Shown here: one piece after another, positions 8,060-53,614 of the stretch
Numbering within the stretch: position 1 is the first letter of the stretch
How the letters are laid out: every line of letters begins with the position of its first letter
DNA from: Bacillota bacterium
Lineage (GTDB): Bacteria; Bacillota; Sulfobacillia; JAJYWN01
Direction: 5' to 3'
NCBI GenBank assembly: GCA_021791495.1
Contig: JAJYWN010000021.1
Location: forward strand, 1-64,000
DNA: 64,000 nucleotides
Program-made: the position numbers and the translations under genes
The notes under the pieces: model-generated
What the model was told of the DNA's origin: nothing
Database searches by the model: none
Seen by the model: the letters and a program-made list of their open reading frames with translations, nothing else

Positions 8060-8061
8060 GG

Positions 8062-9690: not shown

Positions 9691-9760
9691 TGGGCCACTC
9701 CTTATGGTCGATGATCGAGACGTGCGCACTCCGTCGAATGCGCCCGCCATGGTGCTGCTA

Positions 9761-12700
9761 TCAGTCCTTGGCGCCGCCCGCGCCGGCGGCGTCCGCGCTC
9801 GCGGCGTCCGCACCCGCGGCACCGGCCTTGAAGAGAGGGGCGAACAAGTCCGCCTCCAACTTGGCGGCGAACATCGCCCGGCCGCGCTCGCCCCGGAGCC
9901 GGCGGACCTCACGCATACCCATGGCGCCCAAGACTTCAAGAAGCTGGTTTCGCCATGAGATCATCAGATTCACGATGCGCTGGGCGCCCCAGGTCGGGTC
10001 CATGGTGGCCAAGCCGGACGGGCAAGGGTCGCCGGCGAAGCAGCCGTCCGTGAGCGGGCATCCGAGGGCCGCCACCAAGGGGACGTCGACGACGACTCCG
10101 TCCGCTCCCAGGATGATGGCCTTGGGCACATGCTCGGCGGCGGCGATCCCCCCGCCGGCCAAAAGGGTAATGTCGTCGCGGATGTTCGCCGCGACCAGAG
10201 CCTGGTGTACCATGGGCAAAGCCTCGTGGAGGGGCCGTCCGTCGCCGCAGATGCCGTCCCAGCCGGCGGCCAGGTGGACCGCCTCGACCCCGGCCTTGGC
10301 CAGTTCGACGACGCGCGAGGGGGCGCGGGAGGTGTCAAGGGGGACGCGGACGACGACCACGACCCCGCTGCCGGCGCCGCCGGAGGTGCCGATTGGCCGA
10401 CTGGCCGCCCGGGCCGCGGTGATGCGGTGCAGGGTTTCCTCGATGGCGCCCGCGTCTTCCACCTCAATCAGAGTGGGGGCCGTCGCCCCATGGCTTTGGT
10501 CCGCAACCGCCCCGCCGGTCGTAACAGTGGCGGCGGGGTCTAGCACGAAAGTTTCCAGACGTGCGGCGGCCTGGCGGGCGGCGGCCATCACCGCCGGTTC
10601 GCCACCGTGCACGGGGGGCGGGGAGAAAAGCACCGGGATGGGGATCTCCACCGTCACCGGGATGTCCCCCACCATCTCACCGCGCGCGTCGAATGTCAGG
10701 CGTCGCGGGCGCCGGCCCACGTAAATAGCGGTGCTGATGTATTCGCGGCCGTGGATCCCGTCGCGGGTGGGCCGGACGATCTCGCTCATATCCGTCCACA
10801 TGCCATCGAAGCCCTCGCCCGCAAAGGGGCCCCGGTAACCGGCCCCGGTGACGGGGATGCGGCCGTCGTCGGCCTGTCGGGCCAGCGAGAAGAGGATATC
10901 CGGTGTGAACGGGCCCTTCCCGGAAGCGGCGAAAGCGGGGTCGGTGGAGATCGAAAGGTTCTGCCGGGGGCACTCCATGACGCAACGGAAGCAGGCCTTG
11001 CACAGGTCGCTGGCCGGAGCCGCCATGCGGCGCGGGTCGTTTGGGTTGCGGAAGTGCACACCGTAGATGCACGCTTCGCCGCAGTGTCCACAGTTCACGC
11101 AGTAGTCGCCGCGCTCGACACGGAACCGGCTGGACACACCACCGGGCGGCGGTGCCACGGGCACGGTTTCAAGGTGGAAGCGACCGCCGTGGTCCTCCTT
11201 GGAGCCGGCGGTACGGGTGGATGCCGGTGGAGACGTGGGTGCCGACGCGGACACGGGCACGGGGCTCGCAGGCGCTGCGCTCGCGGCGAAAGTAGCGTTT
11301 TCCTTCAGCCACTTCTGCGTCAGGAGTCCGGCCGGCCGTACCAGCCCGATCCGCTCGGCATAGGCCGGGTCCTTCTCGACCCCGGCCACGAAACTCTGAA
11401 TCTGCTCGGATGGCCGCCCGAACCTTGCGGCCAGGGCAGTCTCCAGGCGCTCCCAGGCGTCCATCAATGGCAGGCCGGCTTGGCAAGTCTCAGCGCAAGC
11501 GCGGCAACGCATGCACTGGAAGGCAGCCGCGGCCTCATCTACGTCGATGCCGTCTTTTCCAGCGGCTCCGCCGGCCGCACCTGCCGCTCCGGCCAGCCTC
11601 CTGGCCAGCCAGAGCTTGCCGCGGGCCGTCACGCGCTCGTCACCGGTGTGCAGATAGGCCGGGCACACGGCCACACAGTTGGCGCAAGAGGTGCATTGGA
11701 GCGAAGTCAGGAGAAGCTCCGGAAGTGGGTCACCGTCGAAGGTCACCGGTTCAGGAGAGACGTGGAAGCGGGCCGCGTGAGCTGCCTTGGCAGCCGGCAC
11801 CGTCTGGGTCACCTGGGCCGTGGGGGCCGGCGCGGCCGGAGCCATCCGAGTGGCCGGAGCCTCCGCCCCTCCCGAGACCGCGCCTACCAGGGGCGATACC
11901 GCCCTCAACAGAGACATTCCCGCACCGAAAGGCCCGGGACGAAACGCCACCCGCCCGGCGGGCGAAAGGGCCTGAAGGCTGAGGAACTTGCCTGGGTTCA
12001 GTATGGCGACGGGATCAGACCCCCGCTTGGCCCGAACCAAGTCGGCCAAGCGCCCACCCGTGTACTTCTCGGCGGCGAAGGCTGCGTGCCACACGCCAAG
12101 GTTGTACGGCCGGCCACCGAATCGTCGGCCGAGGGAATCGAGCATCGAAGCCACGGCTAAGTGGACCGTGTAAGACGACTTTCGTACGTCGGTGAGGAAC
12201 ATAGGGATGACCAAGGCCTCTCCACCCCGCAGGGCGTGGGCCTCCACCGCCAGTTCCAGGCCCCAACGCGCTGCCAGGCGATGGGCCTCTTCCAGGAACC
12301 CCGTGGTCGCCTCCAGGGGCAGCACGACCTGTCCAGCAAGAAGGGATGGACCCAAAGACCTGATGCGCATGGGGAAATACCGGTCCGCCCACAGATGGCC
12401 GCTCTTCTCCCGGTCGGCTTCGGCCGCCTCGGGGCGCCGCCGGAGGGTCTCGCCCAGCGCTTCCTCGGCCGCGGCGTCATCTACTAGGAGAAGCAGGGAC
12501 GGGCGCTCGTCAAGGAACGCGGCGCGATCACCATCGCCGCACCCAGTGAGGCCAACCCGTTGCCCCGTCTGCCCATCGGCCGTAGCCAACTGGTTCAACA
12601 GCCGCAAAAGCCCCGGTTCAAGGAACATTATGGTGGCAGGGCCGTTGGCGGGGCCAACGCCGCATGGGTCACCGTTGCCCTTCCCCTGGAGCTCCGCCGC

Positions 12701-13507
12701 GAAGCGGAGGGCCGCCCGGTTGGACTCGAAGGACACCAGATGCGGCCGCCGGAAAGTCGGACGCGAGATCAGGCGAAGGGTGACCTTGGAGATCAGGCCA
12801 AGCTGCCCTTCGGTTCCGATGAGCCGCTCGAACAGCGGATCTTGGCGCCGGACTTGCCTCACCGTGCCGTCGATCCCCACCGTCTCGATGGACTCCACCC
12901 AATCCGCGGCGGACCCGTACTTGGCGGCGTTGATGCCGAAACCTCCACTGGACAGCCACCCGCCCACGGTCCCCATGCGGTTCGAAGGGTAGACCGCCAA
13001 GGTCAACCCATCCTTGGCGACGCGGTCGGCGATGTCACCGAAGCGCGCCCCCGCCTCCACGGTGATGGTGGCGTGCGGGCCAGCGGCTGCTGCTGCCGCC
13101 GTCCCTGCGGCGCCGGTCGAGACGCGGGTGTCCACCGGACCGATGGCCTTGAAGAAAGAGAAGTCCAGCATGATGCCGCCGCGGGCCGGCACCGGCCCAC
13201 CGAAGGCCGTCGAGGCCACACCCCTTGGCGTCACAGGTACCTTCTCCCGTGAAGCGAAGCCCATCACCTCGGAGATGTCCCGCGTGTGGCGCGGCTGCAC
13301 CACTACGCCCGGCCTGGGCTGCATAAGGGCGGTCACAAGCCAATCCGGCACATCGGCCAAGTCGCGGGAGTAAAGGCGGAGTGAGGAAGGTGAGTTGAAA
13401 ACCCGGGCCCCGTCGCCAAGGAGCGCACGTAACTTGGTTCCAAGGACGACGGTCGAATCGGTGCGGGTCGGCGCGCTGCGATAGGTACGATCACTACGGT
13501 TCGACAA
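9761..13507 (-). CDS. FAD oxidase, multi-ferredoxin and FMN-barrel fusion protein
   Basis: A 1248-residue fusion. Residues ~50-520 are a GlcD-type FAD-linked oxidase (PRGVASTAFGG, YPSNRMGTVGGWLSSGG, GTEGQLGLI). At ~600-680 two CxxCxxC motifs resemble GlcF (CTSCANCVAVCP, CMRCRACAETC). At ~800-850 two more follow (CVNCGHCGEAC, CKACFRCVMECP). From ~860 there is a second glutamate-synthase-type FMN barrel (GFDGMWTDMSEIVRPTRDG), ending with ALGCPLTDGCFAG. No NAD(P)H site like GltD is seen. I infer an electron-input subunit that oxidises a 2-hydroxy acid and feeds the operon's synthase. It starts at TTG 13507 after GGAGGG and is first in the operon. Confidence 0.85.
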   Translation of the reverse strand: MSNRSDRTYRSAPTRTDSTVVLGTKLRALLGDGARVFNSPSSLRLYSRDLADVPDWLVTALMQPRPGVVVQPRHTRDISEVMGFASREKVPVTPRGVASTAFGGPVPARGGIMLDFSFFKAIGPVDTRVSTGAAGTAAAAAAGPHATITVEAGARFGDIADRVAKDGLTLAVYPSNRMGTVGGWLSSGGFGINAAKYGSAADWVESIETVGIDGTVRQVRRQDPLFERLIGTEGQLGLISKVTLRLISRPTFRRPHLVSFESNRAALRFAAELQGKGNGDPCGVGPANGPATIMFLEPGLLRLLNQLATADGQTGQRVGLTGCGDGDRAAFLDERPSLLLLVDDAAAEEALGETLRRRPEAAEADREKSGHLWADRYFPMRIRSLGPSLLAGQVVLPLEATTGFLEEAHRLAARWGLELAVEAHALRGGEALVIPMFLTDVRKSSYTVHLAVASMLDSLGRRFGGRPYNLGVWHAAFAAEKYTGGRLADLVRAKRGSDPVAILNPGKFLSLQALSPAGRVAFRPGPFGAGMSLLRAVSPLVGAVSGGAEAPATRMAPAAPAPTAQVTQTVPAAKAAHAARFHVSPEPVTFDGDPLPELLLTSLQCTSCANCVAVCPAYLHTGDERVTARGKLWLARRLAGAAGAAGGAAGKDGIDVDEAAAAFQCMRCRACAETCQAGLPLMDAWERLETALAARFGRPSEQIQSFVAGVEKDPAYAERIGLVRPAGLLTQKWLKENATFAASAAPASPVPVSASAPTSPPASTRTAGSKEDHGGRFHLETVPVAPPPGGVSSRFRVERGDYCVNCGHCGEACIYGVHFRNPNDPRRMAAPASDLCKACFRCVMECPRQNLSISTDPAFAASGKGPFTPDILFSLARQADDGRIPVTGAGYRGPFAGEGFDGMWTDMSEIVRPTRDGIHGREYISTAIYVGRRPRRLTFDARGEMVGDIPVTVEIPIPVLFSPPPVHGGEPAVMAAARQAAARLETFVLDPAATVTTGGAVADQSHGATAPTLIEVEDAGAIEETLHRITAARAASRPIGTSGGAGSGVVVVVRVPLDTSRAPSRVVELAKAGVEAVHLAAGWDGICGDGRPLHEALPMVHQALVAANIRDDITLLAGGGIAAAEHVPKAIILGADGVVVDVPLVAALGCPLTDGCFAGDPCPSGLATMDPTWGAQRIVNLMISWRNQLLEVLGAMGMREVRRLRGERGRAMFAAKLEADLFAPLFKAGAAGADAASADAAGAGGAKD

Positions 13508-18047: not shown

Positions 18048-19460
18048 CTAAGCGGGTGTCCCCCTACCGAACAGCCCTGTCAAGGCGTTGACGTCCCTCA
18101 TCGACTCCAATCGCAACACCGCCTGGCCCGTCTCCTCAGCGAGCTTCCAGCCCACCACCGGCACCGTCAGGTCGAGGAACTTCTGGTAGATGTTCTCCAG
18201 ACTCACCGGGTTCTCGGGGTCGCCGCGCGGGTTGTCCACAGTCACTGAGAACTGGGCGCCGTCGCGCGTGGCGCCTGGCGACGCGCTGGTGGGGTCCTTG
18301 GGGCCTGTGGTCACCGTCACCTTGGTGGACCAATGGGCCGGGTAGACGGCATTGAAAGTGTCGGTGGCGGCCAGCCGGACCTTGGACATGAGCTCCCGTA
18401 CCGTCGGATCGACCAGGCTTTCGGGCGTGAAGTCGGCCGGGCTCGCGCGGCGGTGGGCGATGGCCAGAGAGGTGCAGAACTGGAGGCTGAACCGGGCCGC
18501 GTAAGGCGTGGTCGGGTCGGGGTTGTCGGTCTTGGCCAAGGCCTCGGAGTAGGTCTCGACCACTATCGAGGCGATACCGGACGGGCGGAGGTCGTGCGCT
18601 TTGACCAGTTCTAGGACAGCGTCCACAGCCGGATGGGTGTGCCTGCAGGAGGCGTGAATCTTGAAAGAGACGTCGTCAATACGGTAGGTCCCCTGCCCCA
18701 GCCCGTCGGTGATGCGGCTCTGGTCCTGCCCCGGCGATGTGGCGGCGAGGAATCCTCTCTCGCCTTCCAGGATCCGCCGGGCCGCCGTGAACCCTTCGCG
18801 GCTGAAGAGGGCCGCGATAACCCCGTCCATGGCCGCTTTGCCGGGGTGCAGGTGCTTGCTCATGGCCCCGTCGGCCAGGAACTCCCATAGTCCGCTGGCC
18901 TCCGTCCCGGCGGTCCCAAGGGCCGCGTCGATAGTCGTCGCGTCGAGCCCCAGCAGCCTGGCCGCGGCCGCCGCCGCCCCGAACACACCGCAGGTCGCCG
19001 TCGAATGCCAGTACTTGTAGTGTGACGGGCCGGCCGCCTCTCCGACGCGGATGGCCACCTCGTACCCGGCCACGATGGCCGCCAGCAGGTCCATCCCGCC
19101 GGCGCCTTGGACCTCAGCTACCGCCAGCGCAGCGGGGATCACGGCGGCGCCGGGATGAATGATGGACGCCCGGTGCACGTCGTCAAGCTCCATGATGTGC
19201 GAGATGGTCCCGTTATGAAGGGCGGCATTGGGCATGGAGGTGCGAGTCCCATACGGTATCAGGGTGGACTCGGTCCCCGCCCCCATGGCCCGAACCGCCT
19301 TCAAGGCAATCCTCCCCGGCGGCGTCTCACTCCCCCCGATGCAAGAGGATAGCCAGTCGAGCAGGCACTTCTTGGCAGACACCAGAGTCGCCGCCGGCAA
19401 CGAATCCGGCCTCAGACCGAAGGTGAACTTCGCCAGAGCAGAGGTAAGTGTCTCGTTCAT
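18048..19460 (-). CDS. MmgE/PrpD-family protein
   Basis: A 470-residue member of the MmgE/PrpD family, which includes 2-methylcitrate dehydratase, cis-aconitate decarboxylase and iminodisuccinate epimerase. Family marks are HNGTISHIMELDDVH, HPGAAVIPAALA, GYEVAIRVG and the KIHASCRHTHPAVDA segment. It shares clear similarity with the second MmgE/PrpD gene at 44562-45956 but sits in a different context, directly after a VapC-type toxin gene, with its GGAGGAG site at the toxin's 3' end. No other pathway genes are nearby, so the substrate is open. Confidence 0.85.
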   Translation of the reverse strand: MNETLTSALAKFTFGLRPDSLPAATLVSAKKCLLDWLSSCIGGSETPPGRIALKAVRAMGAGTESTLIPYGTRTSMPNAALHNGTISHIMELDDVHRASIIHPGAAVIPAALAVAEVQGAGGMDLLAAIVAGYEVAIRVGEAAGPSHYKYWHSTATCGVFGAAAAAARLLGLDATTIDAALGTAGTEASGLWEFLADGAMSKHLHPGKAAMDGVIAALFSREGFTAARRILEGERGFLAATSPGQDQSRITDGLGQGTYRIDDVSFKIHASCRHTHPAVDAVLELVKAHDLRPSGIASIVVETYSEALAKTDNPDPTTPYAARFSLQFCTSLAIAHRRASPADFTPESLVDPTVRELMSKVRLAATDTFNAVYPAHWSTKVTVTTGPKDPTSASPGATRDGAQFSVTVDNPRGDPENPVSLENIYQKFLDLTVPVVGWKLAEETGQAVLRLESMRDVNALTGLFGRGTPA

Positions 19461-40471: not shown

Positions 40472-41374
40472 TCACGCGATGCGACCATCCCTGGCGCCCT
40501 TTGCGAACACCAGGTCGGCCTCAGCGAACTCCTGGTATTCCACCAGCCGGTACAGCTCCTGGCGGTCCAGCATGCGGCCGACGAAACCCACCTGGGTACC
40601 CGTGGCCCTAAGCTCCACCAAGGCGTCCCGCACCGCCTTCATCATCACCCGAAAGACGGTGACAGGGAAAATGGTGATCTGATAGCCCATCCGGGCGAAC
40701 TCCGCCTGAGGGAGATACGGCGTCTGGCCGAAGTCGGTCATGTTCGCCAAAAGGGGTACGCCGGGCGCGCATTCACGCATGCGGCGCGCGAACTCGGCAA
40801 ACTCCTCCCTCGTGTTCAACGCCTCGGGGAACACCACATCGGCTCCCGCCTCGACATACGCCCGCGCGCGCGCCACGGCATCTTCGAACCCGTGGACGGC
40901 CTTGGCGTCGGTGCGGGCAATGATGACGAAATCGGGATCACGCCGGGCGCCGACGGCGGCACGGAGCTTCTGGCACATCTCGTCCGTGGAAATGACGGCC
41001 TTCCCGGGCAGGTGGCCGCACCTCTTCGGGAAGACCTGGTCCTCGATGTGCACCCCGGCCACACCGGCCCGTTCGCACTCCCGGATGGCCCGGGCGGCAT
41101 TGTGGACACCACCGAAACCTGTGTCCATGTCGGCGATGACTGGTAGCTCCGGCACCGCCGCCGCGATGTAGCCGGCCGTCCGGACCATCTCGGACATGTC
41201 CATCAGCCCGATATCGGGCACCCCGGCCACGCCGTTGGCCGTGGCCGCGCCAGAAACGTACACAGCCTGAAACCCAACTTCCCTCGCGATCTTGGCGACG
41301 ATGGCGTCGAAGGCGCCGGGCACTGCCAGTGGTTCACCCTTCAGCAGTTCTCGGAGCTTGGTTGTGGTTCGCAT
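40472..41374 (-). CDS. Isocitrate lyase / PEP mutase family enzyme (methylisocitrate-lyase-like)
   Basis: A 300-residue barrel enzyme: DMDTGFGG metal-binding segment, KRCGHLPGK active-site loop with the catalytic Cys, and ARTDA. These fit methylisocitrate lyase (PrpB), 2,3-dimethylmalate lyase and oxaloacetate-hydrolase relatives, which split or cleave C-C bonds next to carboxylates. It is last in an operon with LeuC/LeuD-like, PrpD-like and HMGL-like genes, so it is the likely cleavage step. Start chosen at ATG 41374, where homology begins; the AAAGGA site is 14 bases away, so the start is less sure. Exact substrate is open. Confidence 0.85.
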   Translation of the reverse strand: MRTTTKLRELLKGEPLAVPGAFDAIVAKIAREVGFQAVYVSGAATANGVAGVPDIGLMDMSEMVRTAGYIAAAVPELPVIADMDTGFGGVHNAARAIRECERAGVAGVHIEDQVFPKRCGHLPGKAVISTDEMCQKLRAAVGARRDPDFVIIARTDAKAVHGFEDAVARARAYVEAGADVVFPEALNTREEFAEFARRMRECAPGVPLLANMTDFGQTPYLPQAEFARMGYQITIFPVTVFRVMMKAVRDALVELRATGTQVGFVGRMLDRQELYRLVEYQEFAEADLVFAKGARDGRIA

Positions 41375-41498
41375 AGTGTTTTGGTCAAATCCTTTCGTGT
41401 CATGGGGGCGCCCCGGCCAGTCGACCCACCGATCAGGCGAGCGCACGGGCGGACGGGGCGTCTCCGGTCATGTCGATTCAGGCTGGCTTGATCACCGT

Positions 41499-43025
41499 CT
41501 AGGCAGCCGGCTCGTGTGCCGCCGCCTTAGCGGCTTTCTTCTTGTTCCGGTATCCTTTGGTCGCATCCCACACCACGGCGAACAGCCCGACCGCCAGTGC
41601 CACAGCGCTAATCGGGCTGGTCAGGAAGACCACCGGATGACCTCCCGATAGCTGCATGGATTGACGCAGGGACTGCTCGAACCGGTCGCCTAGGACCAGC
41701 GCCAGCACCAAGGCCGCCGGCGGGAGGCCGATCAGTCGCATGAAGTACCCCACGACCCCGAACAGGATGACCAGATAGACATCGATCATGCTGTTGTTGG
41801 TGGCATAGGCTCCCACCACGGCCAGGGCGATGATCGCCGGCATCAGGAACTTGGGCGAGATGTCCAGTATCTTGACGAACATACCGATCAGAGGCAGGTT
41901 TAGTATCAAAAGAATGACATTGGAGATAAGCATGGAAGCAAGGACCGTCCAGACCAGATCGGCCTGCTCAGTGAAGAGCATGGGACCTGGACGGATCCCC
42001 CACATCATCAGGGCGCCCATCATAACGGCGGTTGTGCCGGTGGCCGGGATCCCGAGGGTGAGCGTGGGAATCATGGCCCCGGCGGAGGCAGCGTTGTTGG
42101 ACGTCTCGGCGGCGGCCACCCCTTCGATGGCCCCCTGGCCAAAACGCTCCGGATGCCTTGAAAGCCGTTTTTCGGTCATGTAGGAGATCACCGAGGCCAT
42201 GATCGGCCCGGCACCGGGCAGGACACCGGCCAAGAAGCCGATGACCGTCCCGCGGCCGATGGGGCCCGCCGAATCCCTGAACTCCTGCTTGCTGGGCCAC
42301 AGCCGGCCCTTCAGGGCCAGACGCTCGGCCGAGGCGCCCCCCTGACGGATCTCGCGGAAGTACCAGAGCACCTCGCCGACACCGAAGATGCCGACGATGA
42401 CCGATAGGAACTCCACACCGTCCAGAAGCTCCGTGACCCCCATGGTGAACCGCGGGACGCCGGTCTGCAGGTCTGTGCCCACGGTGGAGATCATCAGGCC
42501 CAGGCAGATGGCGATGGCGCTCTTCACGATGGAGCCGCCCATCATCGCGGCTGAGAGCATCAGTGCGGCCAGCATCACCGCGAAGTATTCCGTGGGTCCG
42601 AACTTCAGAGCGAACTCGGCCAAGGGTGGAGCCAAAAAGACGATGCCCCCGAGGGCCACCACACCGCCGATCCACGAACCGATGGCCGAGATGGCCAGAG
42701 CCGAGCCGGCCCGGCCCTGCTTGGCCATTTCAAACCCATCCAGGGCGGTCATCACCGAGGCTGCCTCACCCGGCACTCGCAGGAGCACCGAGGTCAGGGA
42801 ACCGCCGTACATGGAGCCGGCGTAGACGGCCGTCATCATGATTAAGGCGGTATCCGGCCGCATGGAGAAGGCTACCGGGATCAAGAGGGCCAGGGTGGCT
42901 GCCGGGCCCAGGCCCGGCAGCACACCCACGATGGTCCCCAACAGTGCGCCCAAGACAGCCGACGTTAGATTGGCGAAGCTCAGGGCGCCTTCGAAGCCGT
43001 GGAGCAGAAGCTGTAGGTTTTCCAT
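41499..43025 (-). CDS. Tripartite tricarboxylate transporter, large membrane subunit TctA
   Basis: A 508-residue membrane protein with about 11 hydrophobic segments and the TctA marks: GTIVGVLPGLGPAATLALLIP near the start, YAGSMYGGS, and the second-half repeat GFLAGVLPGAGPIMAS. It forms the sodium- or proton-driven channel of TctABC importers for citrate-like acids. The ATG at 43025 follows AAGGAGG. It is preceded by TctB (13 bases) and followed by the lyase gene. An Ala/Lys-rich cytoplasmic tail ends the protein. Confidence 0.95.
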   Translation of the reverse strand: MENLQLLLHGFEGALSFANLTSAVLGALLGTIVGVLPGLGPAATLALLIPVAFSMRPDTALIMMTAVYAGSMYGGSLTSVLLRVPGEAASVMTALDGFEMAKQGRAGSALAISAIGSWIGGVVALGGIVFLAPPLAEFALKFGPTEYFAVMLAALMLSAAMMGGSIVKSAIAICLGLMISTVGTDLQTGVPRFTMGVTELLDGVEFLSVIVGIFGVGEVLWYFREIRQGGASAERLALKGRLWPSKQEFRDSAGPIGRGTVIGFLAGVLPGAGPIMASVISYMTEKRLSRHPERFGQGAIEGVAAAETSNNAASAGAMIPTLTLGIPATGTTAVMMGALMMWGIRPGPMLFTEQADLVWTVLASMLISNVILLILNLPLIGMFVKILDISPKFLMPAIIALAVVGAYATNNSMIDVYLVILFGVVGYFMRLIGLPPAALVLALVLGDRFEQSLRQSMQLSGGHPVVFLTSPISAVALAVGLFAVVWDATKGYRNKKKAAKAAAHEPAA

Positions 43026-43038
43026 AGCTTCTTCCTCC

Positions 43039-43479
43039 TTAGAGAATCCCCAGCGGGCTGGTGGGGAGGGTCACGCCAAGCATGCGGGCGAACAGGCCCC
43101 AGGAAACCAGGGACGTCACCACCGCCACCACCAAGGTCAGCGGCCAGCGCTTCTCCCCCATCACCCTGATGCCACCGGCCATGAACAACGCCGTGGAGAG
43201 CACGTATCCAAGGACCGGCATCAGAACGCAATAGACTACGCCCAAGACAGTCATAGCCATCTCCGACCAGCCCAGGGCCGCCGGTTCATCCCCGCTCTTA
43301 CGTGCCAGGCCGACCAGGTTCAGCAGACAGAGGACGATCATCACCCCGGACACCAACAGCGGAAAGGCGCGGGGACCGATAGCATCGTCCAGCTTGACCT
43401 TGATGGAGAACGCGCTGTAGGCATAGGCGACACTGACAGCCATTAGCGCCAGGGTCACCCACTGTTCCGCCCGTTTCAC
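43039..43479 (-). CDS. Tripartite tricarboxylate transporter, small membrane subunit TctB
   Basis: About 146 residues with four hydrophobic segments, the usual TctB layout: AYSAFSIKVKLDDAIGPRAFPLL after the first helix, and the last two helices separated by RVMGEKRWP. TctB has low sequence conservation, but its position between TctC and TctA settles the call. I prefer the GTG at 43479 with a GGAG site upstream; a GTG at 43494 is also in frame, one base after the TctC stop. Confidence 0.85.
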   Translation of the reverse strand: MKRAEQWVTLALMAVSVAYAYSAFSIKVKLDDAIGPRAFPLLVSGVMIVLCLLNLVGLARKSGDEPAALGWSEMAMTVLGVVYCVLMPVLGYVLSTALFMAGGIRVMGEKRWPLTLVVAVVTSLVSWGLFARMLGVTLPTSPLGIL

Positions 43480-43495
43480 TTGGCTCCGCCTCACT

Positions 43496-44491
43496 TTAGG
43501 GCTTCTTCTGGCCCACGAACTTCTCGATGATCGGTTTGTTGGCTTCGCGCTCTTTCAGCAGGTAGTCCTTGAAAGCGGCCGAGTTCAGGTAGGCGTCTTC
43601 CTGCTCCATCTTCGCAAGGGCATCGGTCCAGCTCTTGGTCTTGACCAACTTGCCCAGCGTGTCATCCCAGTACTTCACCGCGGCGGCCGACATTCCCGGA
43701 GGACCAAAAAGACCGCGCCAGTGAGAGATGACCACGTCGATGCCGAGTTCCTTCCAGGTCGGTGTGTCCTTGACGGCCTTGCCGGTCAACCGCTTGTCCG
43801 ACGAGACGGTGAGGATCCGGGCCTTCCCGGCCTCAGCCTGCGCCGCCGCTTCCGAAACACTGGTCGAGATCACGTCCACGTGGCCGCCCAACAGGTTGGT
43901 CATGAGGTCGCCGCCACTGCGGAAAGCGGTCAGTTTCACTTTGGAGACGTCCACACCCTTGGCCATCAACGGCCGCAGGATGTTGAACTGGTCGTCACTG
44001 GGGATGGTGCCTACGCCGAAGGTCACCGACGCCGGGTCCTTCTTTACGGCGTCGATAATATCCTGGGCAGTCTTGTATTTGGAATCGGCCTTCACCGCCC
44101 ACGCTTCAAACTCGGTGGTCGTGCGGGCGATGGGGGTCGTGTCTTCAATGGAATACTGGGTGGTCCCCATCAGGTTATTGAGCCAGACGCGGTTGGATTC
44201 GTAGATGAGTACGTAGTCGTCGCCTTTCTTCTCCACCAAGTAGGAGCGGGCCACGTTTCCGCCACCGCCTTCCTTGTTGGTGATGACGAAGTTGGCGTTC
44301 ACCTTCTCCTTCTTCACAACATCATCCAGCACCCTGGCGGCCGTGTCCAGGCCACCGCCGGGCGATCCAGCCGCCACCAGTTCAATGGACTTGGCCGGGT
44401 ATTTGGATGACTTCGCCCCAGCGCAACCCGCCAGGGCAGAGACAGCGATCGCCACGACCGCAAGCAAGGCGATCCAACGAGCCAATTTCAT
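43496..44491 (-). CDS. Tripartite tricarboxylate transporter, binding lipoprotein TctC
   Basis: A 331-residue binding protein. The signal peptide ends in the lipobox ALAGC, so it is anchored on the outer face of the membrane, as expected for a Gram-positive cell. The TctC/Bug pattern is present: SIELVAAGSPGGGLDTAAR at the start of the mature part and the GGHVDVISTSVSEA segment. These proteins capture carboxylates and other metabolites for TctAB. Start at ATG 44491 after GGGGGAG. Gap to the upstream PrpD-like gene is 70 bases, the longest inside this operon. Confidence 0.9.
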   Translation of the reverse strand: MKLARWIALLAVVAIAVSALAGCAGAKSSKYPAKSIELVAAGSPGGGLDTAARVLDDVVKKEKVNANFVITNKEGGGGNVARSYLVEKKGDDYVLIYESNRVWLNNLMGTTQYSIEDTTPIARTTTEFEAWAVKADSKYKTAQDIIDAVKKDPASVTFGVGTIPSDDQFNILRPLMAKGVDVSKVKLTAFRSGGDLMTNLLGGHVDVISTSVSEAAAQAEAGKARILTVSSDKRLTGKAVKDTPTWKELGIDVVISHWRGLFGPPGMSAAAVKYWDDTLGKLVKTKSWTDALAKMEQEDAYLNSAAFKDYLLKEREANKPIIEKFVGQKKP

Positions 44492-44561: not shown

Positions 44562-45956
44562 TCAGTTCCTCTTGGGCACCAATAGCCCAGCCAGAGAGGA
44601 CACATCCGCCATAGCTTCCAGATGCAGAACGGCCTCCAGCAGCTCCGCCACCTGCCCGCGGGGCAGGACCTTCCCCGCCAAGCTCGTGAACTTCTCGATC
44701 ACTTCCTTTCGCGTCATGGGGTAGTGCGCGCTCCCCTTCGCGTGCAGGACTGTACACTGGGCGGTGCGACCGTCATTCATCCGGGCGACGACGCGTACGC
44801 CGTGCCGCCCCGTCCGCCCCAGGGAGCTGAACTCATCGGTCTCCACAATCCGCACTTTCTTCGTGAGGGCCACCGTATCGGGCCGTGAGATTCGATCGGA
44901 AGTGTACTGGTCCACGAAGACCTGGCCGTCCTGCAGGCAGACGGCCACCGCGTAGGACAGGTTCATCTGCGCGGAGGTCACCGATTCGGGCCTGTACTCC
45001 CAGCCGACGTGGTGGAGCGTGGTGGGGGTACAAAAGACCGTGACCCCGTCAACGGTTTCGCCGTTTAGCTCGGGCAGCTCGCCCTTCAGGGTGAGCACGG
45101 CGTCGATGGAGGTGTGGTTTGAGCCGCAGCAGGAATAAGGCTTGAAACCGGATGCGGCGCTTTCCCAGCGCGAGCCGAGGTCCCGGATGATCTCCTCCGG
45201 GTCGGAGCCCTTGGCCATGGTCGAGCAGAAGCCGCCGTAGGGCGCTTCAAGAAGGTCCACGATACCCGTCAGCCCGCGCCGTGCCAAAAGCGCCCCGTAG
45301 ACGCCGCTCTCGGCCGCGCGGCCCTGGTGGGCGCGCTTGACGTAGGAGTTATACTGGGCCGCCATGAGGCCGGAGGCCTGGGTTCCGGCGATGCCCACGG
45401 CGTGGAGGAAGGTGTCTCTGTGCAGTTCCAGCACCCGGGCGGCCCCCACCCCGGCGGCGACGGCGCCGGCCACGGCCGAGGAGTGATACCCGTTCGCCAA
45501 GGTGATGGCTCCGGTGGCCACACCGAGCCGGCAGCCTGCCTCGTACCCGGCCGCCACCGCGGCCAGAAAGCGCTCGCCGGACACCGACCCGCCGCTCCGC
45601 TCGGCCAGGGCCAGCACCGCCGGGATGACGGCCGAACCGGGATGAATGACCCCCACTTTGTGCAGGTCATCGATTTCGAAGCTATGGCCAAGGGTGCCGT
45701 TGGCCAGCGCCGCGGCGTGGGCGGGTACCTTTCGCCCGTCACCCCACAGGGTGGCCTCGGCCGCCCGCCCCTCGTCCTCGGCGGCGAAGTCGATCAGAAT
45801 CCGGCCCCAGGGGACAGTGGACCCGAACAAGCCGCAGCCCAGAGTGTCCAGGATGCACAACTTCAGGTGCTCCTGGACCTGTTCCGGCAAGTCCGTCCAG
45901 ACGAGATCCTCGCAGAACTCGGCCAGCCGGCGGGTCACCGGCACGCCCTCGCTCAT
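44562..45956 (-). CDS. MmgE/PrpD-family protein of the carboxylate operon
   Basis: A 464-residue family member with ANGTLGHSFEIDDLHKVG, HPGSAVIPAVLALAE, GYEAGCRLG and a GFKPYSCCGSNHTSIDA segment in place of the usual Cys-His run. 2-Methylcitrate dehydratase is the best-known activity of the family; decarboxylases and epimerases also occur. The start ATG overlaps the LeuD-like stop (ATGA). In this operon it could dehydrate the tricarboxylate made by the HMGL-like domain, with the LeuCD-like pair adding water back at another carbon. Confidence 0.9.
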   Translation of the reverse strand: MSEGVPVTRRLAEFCEDLVWTDLPEQVQEHLKLCILDTLGCGLFGSTVPWGRILIDFAAEDEGRAAEATLWGDGRKVPAHAAALANGTLGHSFEIDDLHKVGVIHPGSAVIPAVLALAERSGGSVSGERFLAAVAAGYEAGCRLGVATGAITLANGYHSSAVAGAVAAGVGAARVLELHRDTFLHAVGIAGTQASGLMAAQYNSYVKRAHQGRAAESGVYGALLARRGLTGIVDLLEAPYGGFCSTMAKGSDPEEIIRDLGSRWESAASGFKPYSCCGSNHTSIDAVLTLKGELPELNGETVDGVTVFCTPTTLHHVGWEYRPESVTSAQMNLSYAVAVCLQDGQVFVDQYTSDRISRPDTVALTKKVRIVETDEFSSLGRTGRHGVRVVARMNDGRTAQCTVLHAKGSAHYPMTRKEVIEKFTSLAGKVLPRGQVAELLEAVLHLEAMADVSSLAGLLVPKRN

Positions 45957-46450
45957 AGCACAAACCTCCCGTGCTTCTTCAGGTAGTTCACCAAGCCGCC
46001 TTCGTGACAGATCTCAAGCATGAACTTCGGTAGGGGCTTGGCCTGCCAGATCCGGCCCGTACTGGTGTCTCTGACCACCCCGGTGGAGAAGTCGACGTGG
46101 ATGGTGGCTCCGTCGGGGATGGCGGAAGTGTCGAACTCCAGGAGAGGTAGGCCCACATTGGCCGCATTGCGGTAGAAGATCCGCGCGAAGGAGGCGGCCA
46201 GCACTCCGCCGACTCCCGCGCCCTTGATCACCGCCGGCGCCGCTTCGCGCGATGAACCGCAGCCAAAGTTCCTACCGGCTACGATCACGTCTCCGGGCGA
46301 GAGTGAGGAGGCGAAGCCGGGGCGGATGTCCTCCATGAGGTAAGGCACCATGTCGGCGATGTTGACGCGGGACTCTTTGGCCTTGGCGGAGATGATGTAG
46401 TCGGTGTTGATGTCGTCGCCGAACCGGTGGGCCCGGCCAAGGGTATTCAT
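45953..46450 (-). CDS. Aconitase-family small subunit (LeuD-like)
   Basis: A 165-residue swivel domain of the LeuD/HacB type: [11 protein letters not shown] at the start, [14 protein letters not shown] and [19 protein letters not shown]. It pairs with the large subunit encoded just upstream; the two genes overlap by ATGA. Relatives act on 3-isopropylmalate, homoaconitate or 2,3-dimethylmaleate. The YRNA-NVG loop that helps set specificity does not by itself settle the substrate. Confidence 0.9.
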
Positions 46451-47757
46451 GCGCTCGCCCCCACTTCCATGTACTGCCGGCAGTCGGCGATGCGGCCTTC
46501 CAAGGCCGACGCCGCCACGGTGGCCGGTGACGCCAAGAAGAGGTTGGCCTCCGGGTTACCGAGGCGCCCCTTGAAATTCCGGTTGGCCGTGGTGACGACG
46601 TTCTCACCGTCCGAAGGAACACCCACGTGCGATCCGCCGGTACAGGCGCTGCAGCCAGGCTGGTTGATGATGGCCCCGGCCTCGAGCAGTATCTCAATGA
46701 TTCCGGCCCGCAGAGCGGCCAGGTAGATCGCCCGGGAGGCCGGCGTCACGAATAGCCGCACGTCTGGGTGGATGTGCCGGCCCGCCAGGACCCCGGCCGC
46801 CACGGCCAGATCCTCCAACCGTCCATTGGTACAGGTGCCGATAACCGCTTCCTTGATGGGAGTCCCGACCACGTCGGAGATGGGCCGGACGTTATCCACG
46901 TTATGGGGACAAGCCACCTGGGGTTCGAGAGAGGCGAGGTCCAGCTGGAGGCGGTCGATGTACCGGGCGCCTGCGTCCGGAGAGACGGCCGAGGCCGGGG
47001 TGGCTGGGGTGACCGGGGCGGTCGGATGGGCCGCACGGCGCTCCGCCAGCCAGCGTTCGAGCACCTCATCGCAAGGGAAGATGCCGGCTTTCGCCCCCAG
47101 TTCCACGGCCATGTTCGCCATGGTCATCCGGCCTGCCACCGAAAGCCCCGCCAGCGCGTCACCGTGGAACTCCAGGGCCGCGTAGGTCGCCCCATCGGCC
47201 CCGAGGCGGGAGGCCAGGGCCAGGATGGCATCCTTGGCGTAGACTCCCGGGCGGAAACGACCAGTCAGGTCCACATAGATGGACTCGGGCACTTTCAGCC
47301 AGAGCGTGCCGGTGAGGAACACCGCCGCTAAGTCACTGGACCCCACGCCGGTCCCAAGAGCGTTCAGCGCCCCATAGGTGCAGGTATGTGAATCGGTCCC
47401 CAGGACGAGATCACCGGGGGAGGCGTAACCCCGTTCGGGGATGATCTGGTGACAGACCCCCTCACCCGGCCCCAAGACTTCCACGCCGTACTCCCGCGCA
47501 AACCGGCGCATGCCATCGTGGATAGCGGCCGCCGCCAGGTTAGGCTGGGTGGGAGCGTGGTCGATCACCAGTATCACCCGGGCCGGGTCCCAGGGGCCGC
47601 CGCCTCCAAGCTCCCTCAAGATGTCGATGGACTGAGGCCGGTTCCCGTCATGGGCCACGGCCAGATCCACCGCGCACACCGCGATTTCTCCGGCCTCCAA
47701 GGGAGTCCCGGCCTTCCTCGAGAGTAGCTTCTCGGCGACGGTCTGGGCCGGTATCAC
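46447..47757 (-). CDS. Aconitase-family large subunit (LeuC-like)
   Basis: A 436-residue Fe-S hydro-lyase subunit. Cluster Cys residues lie in IGTCTNGR and PGCSACTGG, with GTDSHTCTYGALNALGTGVG, DHAPTQ and the LEFHGDALAGLSV segments typical of the LeuC/HacA/DmdA group. An Ala/Thr/Pro-rich loop of ~20 residues (around 255-275) is unusual. I prefer the GTG at 47757 with AGGAGG seven bases upstream over the GTG at 47763; the frame is open to 47913. It starts two bases after the fusion gene stop. No leucine-biosynthesis genes are close, so a catabolic role is more likely. Confidence 0.9.
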   Translation of the reverse strand: MIPAQTVAEKLLSRKAGTPLEAGEIAVCAVDLAVAHDGNRPQSIDILRELGGGGPWDPARVILVIDHAPTQPNLAAAAIHDGMRRFAREYGVEVLGPGEGVCHQIIPERGYASPGDLVLGTDSHTCTYGALNALGTGVGSSDLAAVFLTGTLWLKVPESIYVDLTGRFRPGVYAKDAILALASRLGADGATYAALEFHGDALAGLSVAGRMTMANMAVELGAKAGIFPCDEVLERWLAERRAAHPTAPVTPATPASAVSPDAGARYIDRLQLDLASLEPQVACPHNVDNVRPISDVVGTPIKEAVIGTCTNGRLEDLAVAAGVLAGRHIHPDVRLFVTPASRAIYLAALRAGIIEILLEAGAIINQPGCSACTGGSHVGVPSDGENVVTTANRNFKGRLGNPEANLFLASPATVAASALEGRIADCRQYMEVGASA

Positions 47758-47759
47758 GG

Positions 47760-49664
47760 TCACACCTCCTCGGTCAACTTCGCCAGTTCCTCGTCGGTGA
47801 TCTGGCGTTTCTCTGTTACAGCCAAGGCCTCGACTCTTGCCCGCAGCGCCTCCAGCTTTTTCTCCCCCGGGGCCGGGAGACCCAGTTCGGCCAGGCGCGC
47901 CTGAAGGGCCCACGGGCCGGCGTACTTGCCCAAGGGGAAACGCCGCCGGTTACCCACCGCCTCCGGCGGGAAAGGCTCATAGACCACGGGGTTAGCCATC
48001 ACTCCCATGACGTGGGCCTCCAGCTTATGGGCGAAAGCGTCGCGTCCGATGATGGGTTTCGACGGGTGGATGGAGATGCCCGAGAGCGACTCCGCGAAAC
48101 GCGCCGCTTCGGCCAGCCTGGCTAGGTCGATCCCCAGATCCAGTCCGTAGAAGAAGGTCAGCGTAGCCGCCAATTCCTCGGTGGCGGTGTTTCCAGCGCG
48201 TTCCCCCAGCCCGTAGAGGCAGCCGTCAACGATGGCGGCACCGGCTTCCGCGGCGGCCAGGGCGTTGGCCAACCCTTGGCCGGCGTCGTTGTGTGTATGC
48301 ACCTGAATGGGAACGTGCGTTCCCACGAACTCCACGATTTTTGAGACAAGGTAGCGCATGCCCGCCGGCGAAATGGTACCGGCCGTGTCGGCGATGGCGA
48401 TCCGCTCGGCTCCGGCGTCCAGCGCGGCCCCGTAGACCTCCTTAAGGAAGCCCAGCTCCGTCCGGGTCGAGTCCGTGGGACTGAAGCGGACCACCGCTCC
48501 GCGGCCGCGGGCGTAGCGCACGGCCTCGCGTACGCGCTCCACCATCTCAGCCCGTGTAGCTTTCTGGACGTACTTCAGGCGCACGTCCGAAGAGGGGTAC
48601 ATCAGGTCGACCACGTCGGCCCCTGACGCAAGGCAGGCGTCGATCTGGGCCTTCCAGTCCGGGGTGAAGGCCTGGGCGATGGCTTCCACGGCCAGGGGCA
48701 GGCCCTCGCCCTTAATGCGCTGAATCGCCTCCATGTCGAGCCGAGAACGCCCTGGGTAGCCACCCTGAATGAGGCGGATTCCGGCGGAGGCGAGCCGGCG
48801 GGCCAGTTCCACCTTCTCATCGGCGCCGAAGTTCACCTCCGACGCCTGCTCACCCTCACGGAGGGTGCAATCGTTGATGATGAGGTCGGGACGGAGGCGC
48901 AGGCCAGACAGGGCGGCGGGGTCCTGGTTGAAGACGCTCAGGTACTCCCGGTCGATGGGAATCGGCTTCGGCGCCGCTTGAGTCCCTACCCCGAAGGTAC
49001 GGCGCAGTGAGGCCAAGACCATGCGACCCCCACTCATCACATGGTCGCGCATTGCCTGCTCCGCGGCGTCGGGGTCCCGGTCCATCAGGGCCCGCTGAAC
49101 CACGGCATGCTCCTTGAAGGCGTCCGCCGTCCGACCGGGCATGGCGATGGAGACCGGACGGTAGCGGTGAATCTGGTCCTGCAATTGCCGGAGAATCTCG
49201 CCGCCACGGTTGGTGTCCCCAGCTTCGAAGATGATCCGGTGGAACTCGCGCCCGTACCGCTCAACGGCGGCATAGTCATTGGCCGCGGTGGACCGGCCGA
49301 TCTCCTGAGCTACGCGCTCTAGCTGTGTCAACTGTTCCGAAGTTATGCGGGTGGCCGCGCGGCGGCAAGCCATCCCTTCGACCATGGCCCGGATCTCGTA
49401 AAGCTCCTCGATCTCTCCCAGGCTGAGCCCCACCACTTCCACCACACCATTGGGGCGGCGGCGGACGAGACCTTCCTGCTCAAGGAGTTGGAAGGCTTCA
49501 CGCAAAGGAGTGCGGCTGACGCCGAGGGTCTCGGTCAGGTGCTTGGCCACCATCCGGTGACCAGGCTGCAGCTTGCCATCCAAGATGGCCTTTCGGAGTA
49601 TCTGATAGGTTTGCTGCGTATAGGTGACACTTCCGAGGCGGATTTCCCCAAAGGCCTTGTCCAT
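47760..49664 (-). CDS. GntR(FCD) regulator fused to an HMGL/homocitrate-synthase-like enzyme
   Basis: A 634-residue fusion. Residues ~10-80 are a GntR winged helix (QLLEQEGLVRRRPNG). Residues ~85-220 are an FCD ligand domain with His142, His186 and His208 placed like its metal-binding residues. From ~258 it is an HMGL-like barrel: Asp265 in NDCTLREGEQ, His456 and His458 in HTHND, and YGLGERAGN near 484. A short C-terminal part resembles homocitrate/isopropylmalate synthase without the LeuA regulatory domain. It may make a tricarboxylate from acyl-CoA and a 2-oxo acid while sensing a pathway acid. ATG 49664 follows AAGGGAG. First gene of the operon. Confidence 0.9.
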   Translation of the reverse strand: MDKAFGEIRLGSVTYTQQTYQILRKAILDGKLQPGHRMVAKHLTETLGVSRTPLREAFQLLEQEGLVRRRPNGVVEVVGLSLGEIEELYEIRAMVEGMACRRAATRITSEQLTQLERVAQEIGRSTAANDYAAVERYGREFHRIIFEAGDTNRGGEILRQLQDQIHRYRPVSIAMPGRTADAFKEHAVVQRALMDRDPDAAEQAMRDHVMSGGRMVLASLRRTFGVGTQAAPKPIPIDREYLSVFNQDPAALSGLRLRPDLIINDCTLREGEQASEVNFGADEKVELARRLASAGIRLIQGGYPGRSRLDMEAIQRIKGEGLPLAVEAIAQAFTPDWKAQIDACLASGADVVDLMYPSSDVRLKYVQKATRAEMVERVREAVRYARGRGAVVRFSPTDSTRTELGFLKEVYGAALDAGAERIAIADTAGTISPAGMRYLVSKIVEFVGTHVPIQVHTHNDAGQGLANALAAAEAGAAIVDGCLYGLGERAGNTATEELAATLTFFYGLDLGIDLARLAEAARFAESLSGISIHPSKPIIGRDAFAHKLEAHVMGVMANPVVYEPFPPEAVGNRRRFPLGKYAGPWALQARLAELGLPAPGEKKLEALRARVEALAVTEKRQITDEELAKLTEEV

Positions 49665-49700
49665 TGTCTCTCCCTTTCTGTGAGGTACATGCTTCGTGCA

Positions 49701-49860: not shown

Positions 49861-49891
49861 TTGAAGTGTCTTCACGTGTATTGTGTATAAT
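49861..49891 (+). promoter_or_regulatory. Promoter and operator of the ArsR-type gene
   Basis: TATAAT at 49886-49891 is a consensus -10 element, with TTGAAG at 49861-49866 as a -35 (spacing 19, a little long). A perfect inverted repeat TGAAG-TGT-CTTCA (49862-49874) overlaps the -35, a typical place for an ArsR-family repressor to bind. Confidence 0.6.
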
Positions 49892-49910
49892 GATGGCAGA
49901 GGTGACACCC

Positions 49911-50540
49911 ATGGTCTCCCTTGACGCGCGGGATCAGGACCGAATCGCTGTCGACAAAGTGGCTTTGGCGCTGAGCGACCCGATCAGACTTAAAATCCTG
50001 GACCTGCTGGCGATGGGCCGGTGCGATGACTGTTGCTCACCGGAAAATCCTGACGTGCCCCTGGGCATGTGCAGCTGCGATCTCCTGCCCACCTTGGACT
50101 TGGCGCCCTCCCGCCTTTCCTACCACCTGAAGGAGCTCCGGGAGGCTGAACTGATTACGGAGCAGAAACGCGGGCGGTGGGTCTACTTCTCCCTAAACCG
50201 GCCGACGGTGGAGCGGTTCATGGAGTCGCTGCGCGACCGGTTCGTAACGGAGCGGGAGCCGTCCTGTTCCGCCGCACCGAGTTGCTCCGAGGCGCCAGGT
50301 CGCTCTGGCGCGCCAAACTGCTCTGATTCGCCAACTTGCTCTGGCCCTCCAAGCACCTCTGACGAACACGGTTCCGAAGGCTGCGGAGGCGAACCTGCAC
50401 AGGCTTGCGGATCGGCAACGACCGCGTCATCCCAGACTTGCGGCTCGCCGGTTTCGCCGCGCGGTCACTCCGCAACGTCGTGCGGTCAAACGCGTGCCCG
50501 CGGACTGGAATACGCAATCCCTCGGCCTTTCGTAGAATAG
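49911..50540 (+). CDS. ArsR-family metal-sensing regulator with Cys-repeat tail
   Basis: A 209-residue protein. Residues ~15-110 are an ArsR winged helix (LALSDPIRLKILDLL, SRLSYHLKELREAEL, WVYFSLN). Cys54 and Cys56 in MCSCDL match the CxC metal(loid) site, and Cys38, 41 and 42 (RCDDCC) add more ligands in a longer loop than usual. From residue 118 six 6-residue repeats, [S/N/T]CSxxP-like, are encoded by an 18-bp tandem repeat (50262-50369); further scattered Cys follow, eight in the tail. Known ArsR proteins leave DNA when metal binds. ATG at 49911 after AGAGGTGA. Probably controls the genes downstream. Confidence 0.85.
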   Translation: MVSLDARDQDRIAVDKVALALSDPIRLKILDLLAMGRCDDCCSPENPDVPLGMCSCDLLPTLDLAPSRLSYHLKELREAELITEQKRGRWVYFSLNRPTVERFMESLRDRFVTEREPSCSAAPSCSEAPGRSGAPNCSDSPTCSGPPSTSDEHGSEGCGGEPAQACGSATTASSQTCGSPVSPRGHSATSCGQTRARGLEYAIPRPFVE

Positions 50541-52206: not shown

Positions 52207-52548
52207 ATGTCTCAGAATCAGAATGAAAAGAAGAACGGCGGTTTGTTCGTGACCCTGATCAAGAAGTCGGTCGGCCTGCCGACCGGGAACTCGTCTTGTT
52301 GTGGCCCGGCCCCAGCCGCCGGCGCGGCGGAGCCGAAGACGGGCGCGGGTGCGTCCAATGCGGTGGCCGGGTCCTCCTGCCGCGGCCCCACCGAGGAGGC
52401 AGGCACCGCCCAGTCCGCCCAATCCTCGTGCTGCTCCACCGCATCACCGACCAGTGCCGACGCCTCATCCTGCTGCGGCACGGCAGCAACCTCTCCGGCA
52501 ACACCCGCCTCCGCCCCGGCCCAGAAGAACACCAACTGCTGCGGATAG
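52207..52548 (+). CDS. Small protein with repeated Cys-Cys-Gly motifs
   Basis: A 113-residue protein. After a basic, partly hydrophobic start (GGLFVTLIKKSVGLPTGN) it is an Ala/Pro/Thr/Ser-rich low-complexity chain carrying SSCCG-type motifs: four Cys-Cys pairs and a single Cys, ending in NCCG. The ATG follows a strong AAGGAGG site. It resembles no enzyme; a thiol-rich metal carrier or buffer is the natural guess. The next gene is a permease with a CSCG motif, and the regulator upstream also has a Cys-rich tail. Confidence 0.7.
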   Translation: MSQNQNEKKNGGLFVTLIKKSVGLPTGNSSCCGPAPAAGAAEPKTGAGASNAVAGSSCRGPTEEAGTAQSAQSSCCSTASPTSADASSCCGTAATSPATPASAPAQKNTNCCG

Positions 52549-52645
52549 GACCGGCCGCACGGGCGCAGGTCAAGATCATTCGAGACCGGGGTGCGGGCCG
52601 GCCCGCACCCCCTATTTCAGCAAGATTGCGGGAGGCTTGAGCACA

Positions 52646-53614
52646 ATGGACTTCGTGGTGAACTTGACCGTGACCGCACTAGGAAAAGTGTGGCACACCT
52701 TCTCCGGAAACTGGCCCCTCTTAGTGATCAGCGCCCTGATCGCCGCATCGATGAAGCTATACGTCGACCAGAAGAAGGTGGCCGCTTTCCTCCAGCGGCA
52801 CAAGGGTGCCGGCGTGGTGGGAGCCACCGCAGTCGGGGTCACCACGCCTTTGTGCTCATGCGGCACCACGGCCGTCATCCTTGGCATGATGGCCAATGCC
52901 CTGCCTTGGGCGCCCATCGTGGCCTTCATGGTCGCCTCGCCGCTCACCTCGCCGTCGGAACTGGTGTATAGCGCCGGCCTGTTTGGCTGGCCTTTCGCCC
53001 TGACGTTTTTTGTGGCCTCGATCGTGCTGGGGTTGGCCGGCGGCGTGGTGGCACACTTCCTTGAGCGGCGGGGGTGGCTGACGAATCAGGCGCGCTTCAG
53101 CCCGGTTCTGGGCGATGCGGCCGTGACTGGGGCCGAGTCGAGCGCGGCGGAGGCTGCTCTCGCATCTGGAAAGACTGCTCGGCCATCCCTGGCGGACCTA
53201 CTCCGCGAGACCGCCGTCGTCGGCCGGCGCCTCCTCCTGTTCTTCCTCGGGTTCGCCTTCATCGGTTACATCTTGAACGGCCTTATCCCCGAGACGTGGG
53301 TCTCCACGCTCTTTGGCGGCGGCCGCGTGTACGGCGTGCCGGTGGCGGCGACGCTGGGCCTTCCACTCTACATCAACACCGAGGCCTCGCTCCCCCTGGT
53401 ACGCTCGCTGATGAACCTTGGCATGAGCCCCGGCGCCACGCTGGCCTTTCTCATCACCGGCGCGGGCACCTCCATCGGCGCCATAACCGGCGCCCTGACC
53501 ATCGCCCGTTGGCGGGTGGTCGGGACCGTCATCGGGACCCTGTGGGTGGGCGCGACACTCATTGGCTACCTATACAACAGCGCCTTGGCCACAGGGTTGA
53601 TCGTAATGCGGTAA
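52646..53614 (+). CDS. PF03773-type permease with CSCG motif
   Basis: A 322-residue membrane protein with about eight hydrophobic segments in two blocks, joined by a polar loop (about 145-185). The family motif TPLCSCGTTAV is present after the first block and a second conserved region, NTEASLPLVRSLM, in the other. Related permeases include ArsP, which exports trivalent organoarsenicals, and proteins linked to heavy-metal efflux. The ATG at 52646 follows GGGAGG; the frame is open upstream to 52301 but that part overlaps the CCG protein and is not coding. Likely the export arm of the module. Confidence 0.85.
   Translation: MDFVVNLTVTALGKVWHTFSGNWPLLVISALIAASMKLYVDQKKVAAFLQRHKGAGVVGATAVGVTTPLCSCGTTAVILGMMANALPWAPIVAFMVASPLTSPSELVYSAGLFGWPFALTFFVASIVLGLAGGVVAHFLERRGWLTNQARFSPVLGDAAVTGAESSAAEAALASGKTARPSLADLLRETAVVGRRLLLFFLGFAFIGYILNGLIPETWVSTLFGGGRVYGVPVAATLGLPLYINTEASLPLVRSLMNLGMSPGATLAFLITGAGTSIGAITGALTIARWRVVGTVIGTLWVGATLIGYLYNSALATGLIVMR

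Follow-up and report, generated by a model that had tools for sequence, protein, structure and literature searches.

A GntR-FCD transcriptional regulator and an HMGL-type synthase are encoded as a single 634-residue protein in the window (by which we mean the whole 64-kb stretch of DNA analysed here). The fusion is in all likelihood real: distant families of the class share an operon in which two overlapping or abutting genes have here merged into one. We know of no other fusion of an FCD-type GntR regulator with a Claisen synthase, and to our knowledge fusions of a regulator with an enzyme are few in any case (MocR, PutA, NadR and BirA). This domain architecture is genuine and, as far as it was searched for, unique, occurring in one draft genome. 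The interpretation to which we lean, with some reserve, is that of a real fusion, which tethers an autoregulator of the methylcitrate-repressor type to the enzyme that opens an alkylcitrate-type pathway.

Domain composition of the fused protein

The frame runs from 49664 to 47760 on the minus strand over 634 codons with zero internal stops, and its start, the ATG at 49664, is preceded by the purine-rich AAAGGGAGAG. All four Pfam matches of the protein exceed the curated cut-offs. The gene and its parts are as follows.

47760..49664, minus strand: fused gene, 634 aa, GntR-FCD regulator plus HMGL-type (homocitrate/isopropylmalate synthase-like) enzyme; open frame with four Pfam domains
49446..49616, minus strand: GntR winged helix-turn-helix, residues 17-73 (PF00392, 54 bits)
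49038..49406, minus strand: FCD ligand-binding domain, residues 87-209 (PF07729, 90.6 bits)
48882..48992, minus strand: joint and linker, residues 225-261, the former leader of the enzyme (placed by the relatives' stop and GTG start and by codon scores)
48099..48881, minus strand: HMGL-like catalytic barrel, residues 262-522 (PF00682, 207.6 bits)
47814..48053, minus strand: HCS_D2 post-HMGL subdomain of the homocitrate-synthase type, residues 538-617 (PF22617, 49.4 bits)

A GntR winged helix-turn-helix followed by an FCD domain places the N-terminal half in the FCD (FadR/VanR) group of the GntR family. MocR and GabR likewise combine a GntR winged helix-turn-helix with an enzyme fold in one chain, but theirs is a PLP aminotransferase fold without an FCD domain, whereas the fusion has a full FCD domain and an HMGL enzyme; no aminotransferase fold I domain, the mark of a MocR protein, was matched by Pfam in the fused protein. 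The three FCD histidines, H142, H186 and H208, are all kept (alignment A2). The fourth metal ligand, an Asp at position H-4 before the first His, is Gly both in the fusion and in its two closest relatives, G036 and G074, such that the metal site, normally an Asp with three His, is incomplete in all three proteins. Losses of metal ligands of this kind are tolerated in the FCD (FadR/VanR) subfamily.

The enzyme half keeps the HMGL motifs DCTLREGEQ, HTHND and GERAGN in the alignment, and the subdomain that follows the barrel carries the FAHK and NPVVYE motifs with the catalytic His and Tyr. The Glu of the SxED motif, which occurs in homocitrate synthase, isopropylmalate synthase and NifV-type sequences, is replaced by Thr (SPTD) in the fusion, G036 and G074 alike, and the HMGL active site is therefore incomplete. 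A VRFS motif is present, the form of keto-diacid-binding homocitrate synthases; isopropylmalate synthases have VEFS at this position. The solved homocitrate and isopropylmalate synthases (6ktq, 3rmj and 2ztj) share the HMGL barrel, the HCS_D2 subdomain and the catalytic motifs with the fusion, VRFS being the homocitrate synthase form. Unlike them, the fusion has Thr for the SxED Glu and an N-terminal regulator, and its HMGL half scores far under every cut-off of the NCBIfam equivalogs for LeuA, NifV, homocitrate synthase and citramalate synthase. The initial annotation had described a transcription factor fused to an enzyme, with a GntR helix-turn-helix, an FCD domain with three His and the HMGL motifs in one unbroken frame; this description is borne out, as the profiles show each half to be intact and the joint is crossed by one continuous frame. 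Its further claim of a complete HMGL active site does not hold, since SPTD stands in place of SxED.

A separate HMGL subfamily, represented by seven loci (L028-L032, L007 and L008), has a W-rich N-terminal leader and lacks both the SxED Glu and the FAHK His. Its members neighbour transporter, dehydrogenase, and creatininase-like or succinyl-CoA-synthetase-like genes, and it is apparently an uncharacterised catabolic branch.

The joint and the unfused relatives

The joint lies at ~48990, within the range of 48950-48990 first suggested for it. In the nearest relatives of the operon (G036:C60 and G074:C1), gntR and hmgl are separate, adjacent genes at the same place, with the same downstream genes behind the split pair. 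The gntR stop of G036 overlaps the GTG start of hmgl by 4 nt (GTGA), and in G074 the two genes are 16 nt apart with GGAGG between them. Because the halves are separate and adjacent in the relatives, we conclude that the fusion arose by merger of two neighbours, a course made plausible by the recurrence of GntR-HMGL adjacency in less related operons. The GntR part of the fusion terminates where the relatives' GntR proteins terminate, and linker residues 236-260 correspond to the leader at the N-terminus of the free-standing enzymes (DREYLSVFN... against WGPEWTSPF...; alignment A1), so that the leader of the enzyme became the linker. A W-rich leader of a similar kind is also present in more distant HMGL proteins. 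An AlphaFold2 model built from a 9-row alignment was fair for the GntR-FCD half (blocks mostly 70-90), partly poor for the enzyme, and weak overall (pTM 0.43); the linker of about 35 residues has very low confidence in this model and is probably a flexible or disordered tether.

Given that the nearest relatives encode two genes, a lost stop codon is a serious possibility. An assembly or sequencing error might have added a G to the GGGG run at the joint and so masked a TAG (TTC GGG TAG) in what are truly two genes, and short homopolymer indels are frequent in assemblies. A TAG is indeed found in the +1 frame at nt 676, exactly at the relatives' GntR end, and with one G fewer the GntR protein would end ...RRTFG-TAG. 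The same correction, however, would strand the enzyme: upstream, at least 80 codons are free of ATG, GTG and TTG (in frame 2 there is none between nt 420 and the joint), and on the downstream side none precedes residue 277, inside the barrel, leaving a rare CTG at residue 242 as the sole start. In the sequence as assembled, the enzyme half has no ATG, GTG or TTG near the joint in any usable frame, and at the position of the relatives' GTG start the fused gene reads GTA. Codon use, which follows the observed frame from residue 231 onward, also speaks against an error. Log-odds trained on 15 genes of the window gave +22.9 for the observed frame over nt 675-780 versus -22.1 and -34.9 for the other two, and +6.0 versus -12.5 and -10.5 over nt 675-723; the lowest 30-nt block (660-690, -1.4) was still the highest of the three frames. 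We consider a one-base assembly error unlikely. The initial annotation had set homologues that are always two proteins, together with a stop lost from this assembly, against the fusion: the two nearest relatives do have two proteins, but the lost-stop part would leave the enzyme without a normal start codon. A chimeric contig can be ruled out, as both halves neighbour each other in the same operon in both relatives. The host genome is a draft of 81 contigs with 4.2% contamination, and the fusion is known from one assembly only.

At the thresholds used, searches of the class (all 154 genomes), of 398 sampled genomes of the phylum, of 398 Pseudomonadota and 385 Alphaproteobacteria (about 780), and of phages and viral contigs gave no further fusion; these thresholds were set high, so that a very divergent fusion could escape. 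A scan of genome contigs returned GntR homologues only. Two candidates were rejected. The match on the Paenibacillus plasmid pHD01 (H1, L023), which spans 86% of the query, consists of a FadR gene that runs to locus position 5408 and an HMGL frame at 5508, and the candidate in genome G012 (L006, G012:C8) is two genes as well. At both loci, which belong to unrelated operons, a GntR/FadR gene immediately precedes an HMGL-type gene without being fused to it, and one of the operons continues with fumC.

The operon and its pathway

As originally proposed, the fused gene heads its own operon, in which same-strand genes run down to 40472.

46447..47757, minus strand: large subunit of an aconitase/isopropylmalate dehydratase, LeuC/HacA/DmdA type (cut-offs of NF001614 and TIGR02086 exceeded)
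45953..46450, minus strand: LeuD/DmdB-type small subunit (TIGR02087 above cut-off)
44562..45956, minus strand: MmgE/PrpD-family protein (PF03972, PF19305)
43496..44491, minus strand: TctC, binding protein of a tripartite tricarboxylate transporter, starting probably at 44491 (PF03401)
43039..43494, minus strand: TctB small membrane subunit (PF07331)
41499..43025, minus strand: TctA large membrane subunit (PF01970)
40472..41446, minus strand: PrpB-like lyase of the ICL/PEP-mutase family with a KRCGH motif, open reading frame with probable start 41374 (TIGR02317)

Judged by its gene families, the operon looks catabolic, combining a LeuCD-like isomerase, an MmgE/PrpD protein, a tripartite carboxylate transporter and a PrpB-like lyase. 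The enzyme had been called biosynthetic, a label that we abandon because the genes for leucine synthesis lie elsewhere and an uptake system and a PrpB-like lyase form part of the operon; a role in leucine synthesis itself is ruled out by the presence of leuA, leuC and leuB on contig C51. The LeuC/HacA/DmdA-type subunit is 54-57% identical to the genes in the same place in both relatives. The MmgE/PrpD-family protein scores under all PrpD equivalog cut-offs; a second gene of this family (18048-19460, minus strand), 32% identical to that of the operon, lies apart from it. The PrpB-like lyase scores 360.7 bits against the TIGR02317 cut-off of 354.4 and is the sole such protein in the genome.

The operons of G036 and G074 have the same gene order (gntR-hmgl-leuC-leuD-prpD-tctC-tctB-tctA), the same upstream element and the Thr in SPTD. 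They differ from the fusion locus in that gntR and hmgl are two genes and that a lyase stands beside the operon in G074 only, where the PrpB copy scores 352.2, barely under the 354.4 cut-off; the G036 operon has no lyase after TctA. Both relatives have a better-scoring prpB near a citrate-synthase-family gene elsewhere in the genome. The operon is therefore a second pathway in these organisms, which lowers our confidence that it encodes an ordinary methylcitrate cycle. Phosphonate-type operons on Pantoea and Bradyrhizobium plasmids (L024 and L025) place the same families side by side (HMGL, aconitase-like and ICL/PEP-mutase-like), but their HMGL part is 31-33% identical to that of the fusion, there is no GntR fusion, and no TTT or PrpD gene is annotated in the stretch.

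No protein of the PF00285 citrate-synthase family, which includes PrpC, was found in the 97%-complete host genome (G000); an aconitase gene and an isocitrate dehydrogenase-family gene occur together on contig C68. Of its three HMGL matches, just two are Claisen-type synthases, namely LeuA (on C51) and the fused protein; the third is of the carboxyltransferase type. With no PF00285 protein and only these two synthases, the fused enzyme becomes a candidate for the citrate or methylcitrate synthase that the genome otherwise seems to lack. This role is called into question by G036 and G074, which have both kinds of enzyme, and the gene sought may lie in the 3% of the genome that is perhaps absent.

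Beside the operon, on the plus strand, are an ArsR-like regulator with a Cys-rich repetitive tail (49866-50540), a small CC-rich peptide (52207-52548) and a permease with a TPLCSCG motif (52301-53614). Together these genes resemble a cluster for resistance to metals or arsenic in which the Cys-rich tails are unusual. Elsewhere in the window, three consecutive long open reading frames (5354-13507, minus strand) combine what resemble split glutamate-synthase modules with ferredoxin-like Cys clusters and an FAD-oxidase-like domain.

Regulation and coupling of the two halves

The closest solved structure to the GntR half was 7xp0 (1.4e-27; next 1.1e-16). Residues R40, L53, R54 and V66 of this structure correspond, at a constant offset of 14, to R54, L67, R68 and V80 of the P. 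aeruginosa methylcitrate repressor PrpR (PA0797), where substitutions or deletions have been reported (PMC9765439); we thus identify 7xp0 as PrpR, the repressor of the methylcitrate operon. Like the fusion, PrpR/PmiR (7xp0, 7xp1) is a GntR-FCD protein with three FCD His and is its best solved match, but it stands alone, keeps the Asp ligand and has a PrpC-type synthase in the methylcitrate operon that it represses. The 7xp0 and 7xp1 structures were presumably published under the name PmiR and concern 2-methylisocitrate. The GntR half also matches the NCBIfam PhnR model (126 bits, cut-off 271.5), and with this match and the sparse sampling of the PDB, the likeness to PrpR is a lead to the ligand rather than proof of it.

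Two elements upstream of the fused gene come into question as operators.

49686..49698, minus strand: candidate operator CACGAAGCATGTA, 13 nt, shared with both relatives, just upstream of the start codon
49701..49712, minus strand: palindrome TACATTCATGTA, ~0.67 expected by chance in the shuffled 201-nt upstream region

The palindrome, which the initial annotation had put forward as a binding site, exists but carries little significance, about 0.7 being expected in a shuffled upstream region of that length. By comparison, CAYGNAGCATGYA is found a single time in the window, at 49686-49698, where 0.02 would be expected, and has one copy each in L026 and L027, upstream of gntR in both relatives. 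It is the best three-way match of the upstream regions, with 10 of its 13 columns identical, a number of shared columns reached by 0 of 2000 dinucleotide-shuffled trios. The element stands directly before the start codon in the fusion and ~100 nt upstream of where the relatives' genes presumably start. On these sequence comparisons, CACGAAGCATGTA is the better operator candidate, and the palindrome is possibly an accessory half-site. The canonical FadR-type box, TKGT-N3-ACMA, has no site at 0 or 1 mismatch upstream of the start codon; some FCD/GntR members use other operator motifs (PMC4494728), and the predicted PrpR operator, ATTGTCGACAAT (PMC9765439), is unlike the element found here. Promoter and terminator consensus scans gave counts near chance, with no promoter-like site upstream of the fused gene.

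We suggest that the GntR-FCD half would bind the CAYGNAGCATGYA element just upstream of its own start codon and repress the operon, and that an alkylcitrate-like acid of the 2-methylcitrate or methylisocitrate type, either imported or made by the pathway, would bind the FCD domain and bring about release. The HMGL half would condense an acyl-CoA with a 2-oxo acid in the first committed step, LeuCD and MmgE/PrpD would isomerise the product, and the PrpB-like lyase would cleave it. Fusion would fix the ratio of sensor to first enzyme at 1:1 and set the sensor beside the maker of its own ligand.

The same genes could be read as a genuine methylcitrate (propionate) cycle, with an HMGL-type, Re-like synthase taking the place of PrpC. 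The lack of a PF00285 protein in this genome, a single PrpB that exceeds its cut-off, a GntR half nearest to P. aeruginosa PrpR, and the availability of MmgE/PrpD and LeuCD for dehydration and rehydration all fit such a cycle. However, two methylmalonyl-CoA mutases could likewise take propionyl-CoA, the PrpD protein falls short of the equivalogs, the transporter suggests an imported acid, and in G036 and G074 prpB and citrate-synthase-family genes exist separately from the operon; we regard this cycle as possible but doubtful. A different concern is raised by the Thr that replaces the SxED Glu in the fusion and both relatives, since the HMGL half might no longer be a synthase and might act instead as a second binding domain or a lyase-like variant. 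Retention of the barrel motifs (D-TLR-GEQ, HxHND and GERxGN) and of the C-terminal FAHK and YE residues makes this unlikely, and the relatives' free-standing enzyme carries the same Thr, which was thus not produced by the fusion.

A closer coupling of the halves has also to be considered, wherein occupancy or turnover of the enzyme directly alters DNA binding by the GntR half and the protein senses flux, in the manner of PutA and NadR, whose enzyme state directly changes DNA binding. The initial annotation had supposed that enzyme state or product level could act on the gene's own transcription, an idea that the gene arrangement would fit. Regulator and first pathway enzyme are one chain, and FCD regulators and HMGL synthases are both homodimers, so a symmetric fused dimer is possible. 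That a GntR winged helix-turn-helix can be joined to an enzyme fold is known from the MocR proteins (PMC4494728, PMC5320631). On the other hand, the FCD domain, a full sensor in its own right, has been retained, and the ~35-residue linker, probably disordered according to the model, speaks against tight coupling. A long and probably flexible linker and a retained FCD domain together make simple tethering more likely than an enzyme that directly controls DNA binding, and we judge the latter improbable. Less credible still is self-sensing by a fusion whose HMGL half is the sole citrate- or methylcitrate-forming synthase, with its product or catalytic state setting DNA binding by GntR-FCD.

Returning to the tethered autoregulator that we favour, the relatives that keep abutting genes provide a natural before-and-after pair for testing the merger of a regulator with an enzyme, and comparison of the fusion with the unfused pair lets the effect of tethering on the response be tested. 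The operon defines an uncharacterised alkylcitrate-type pathway, with a Thr-for-Glu HMGL synthase, in a genome without a recognised citrate synthase. Sensor and enzyme of the same pathway may here have been united in one protein.
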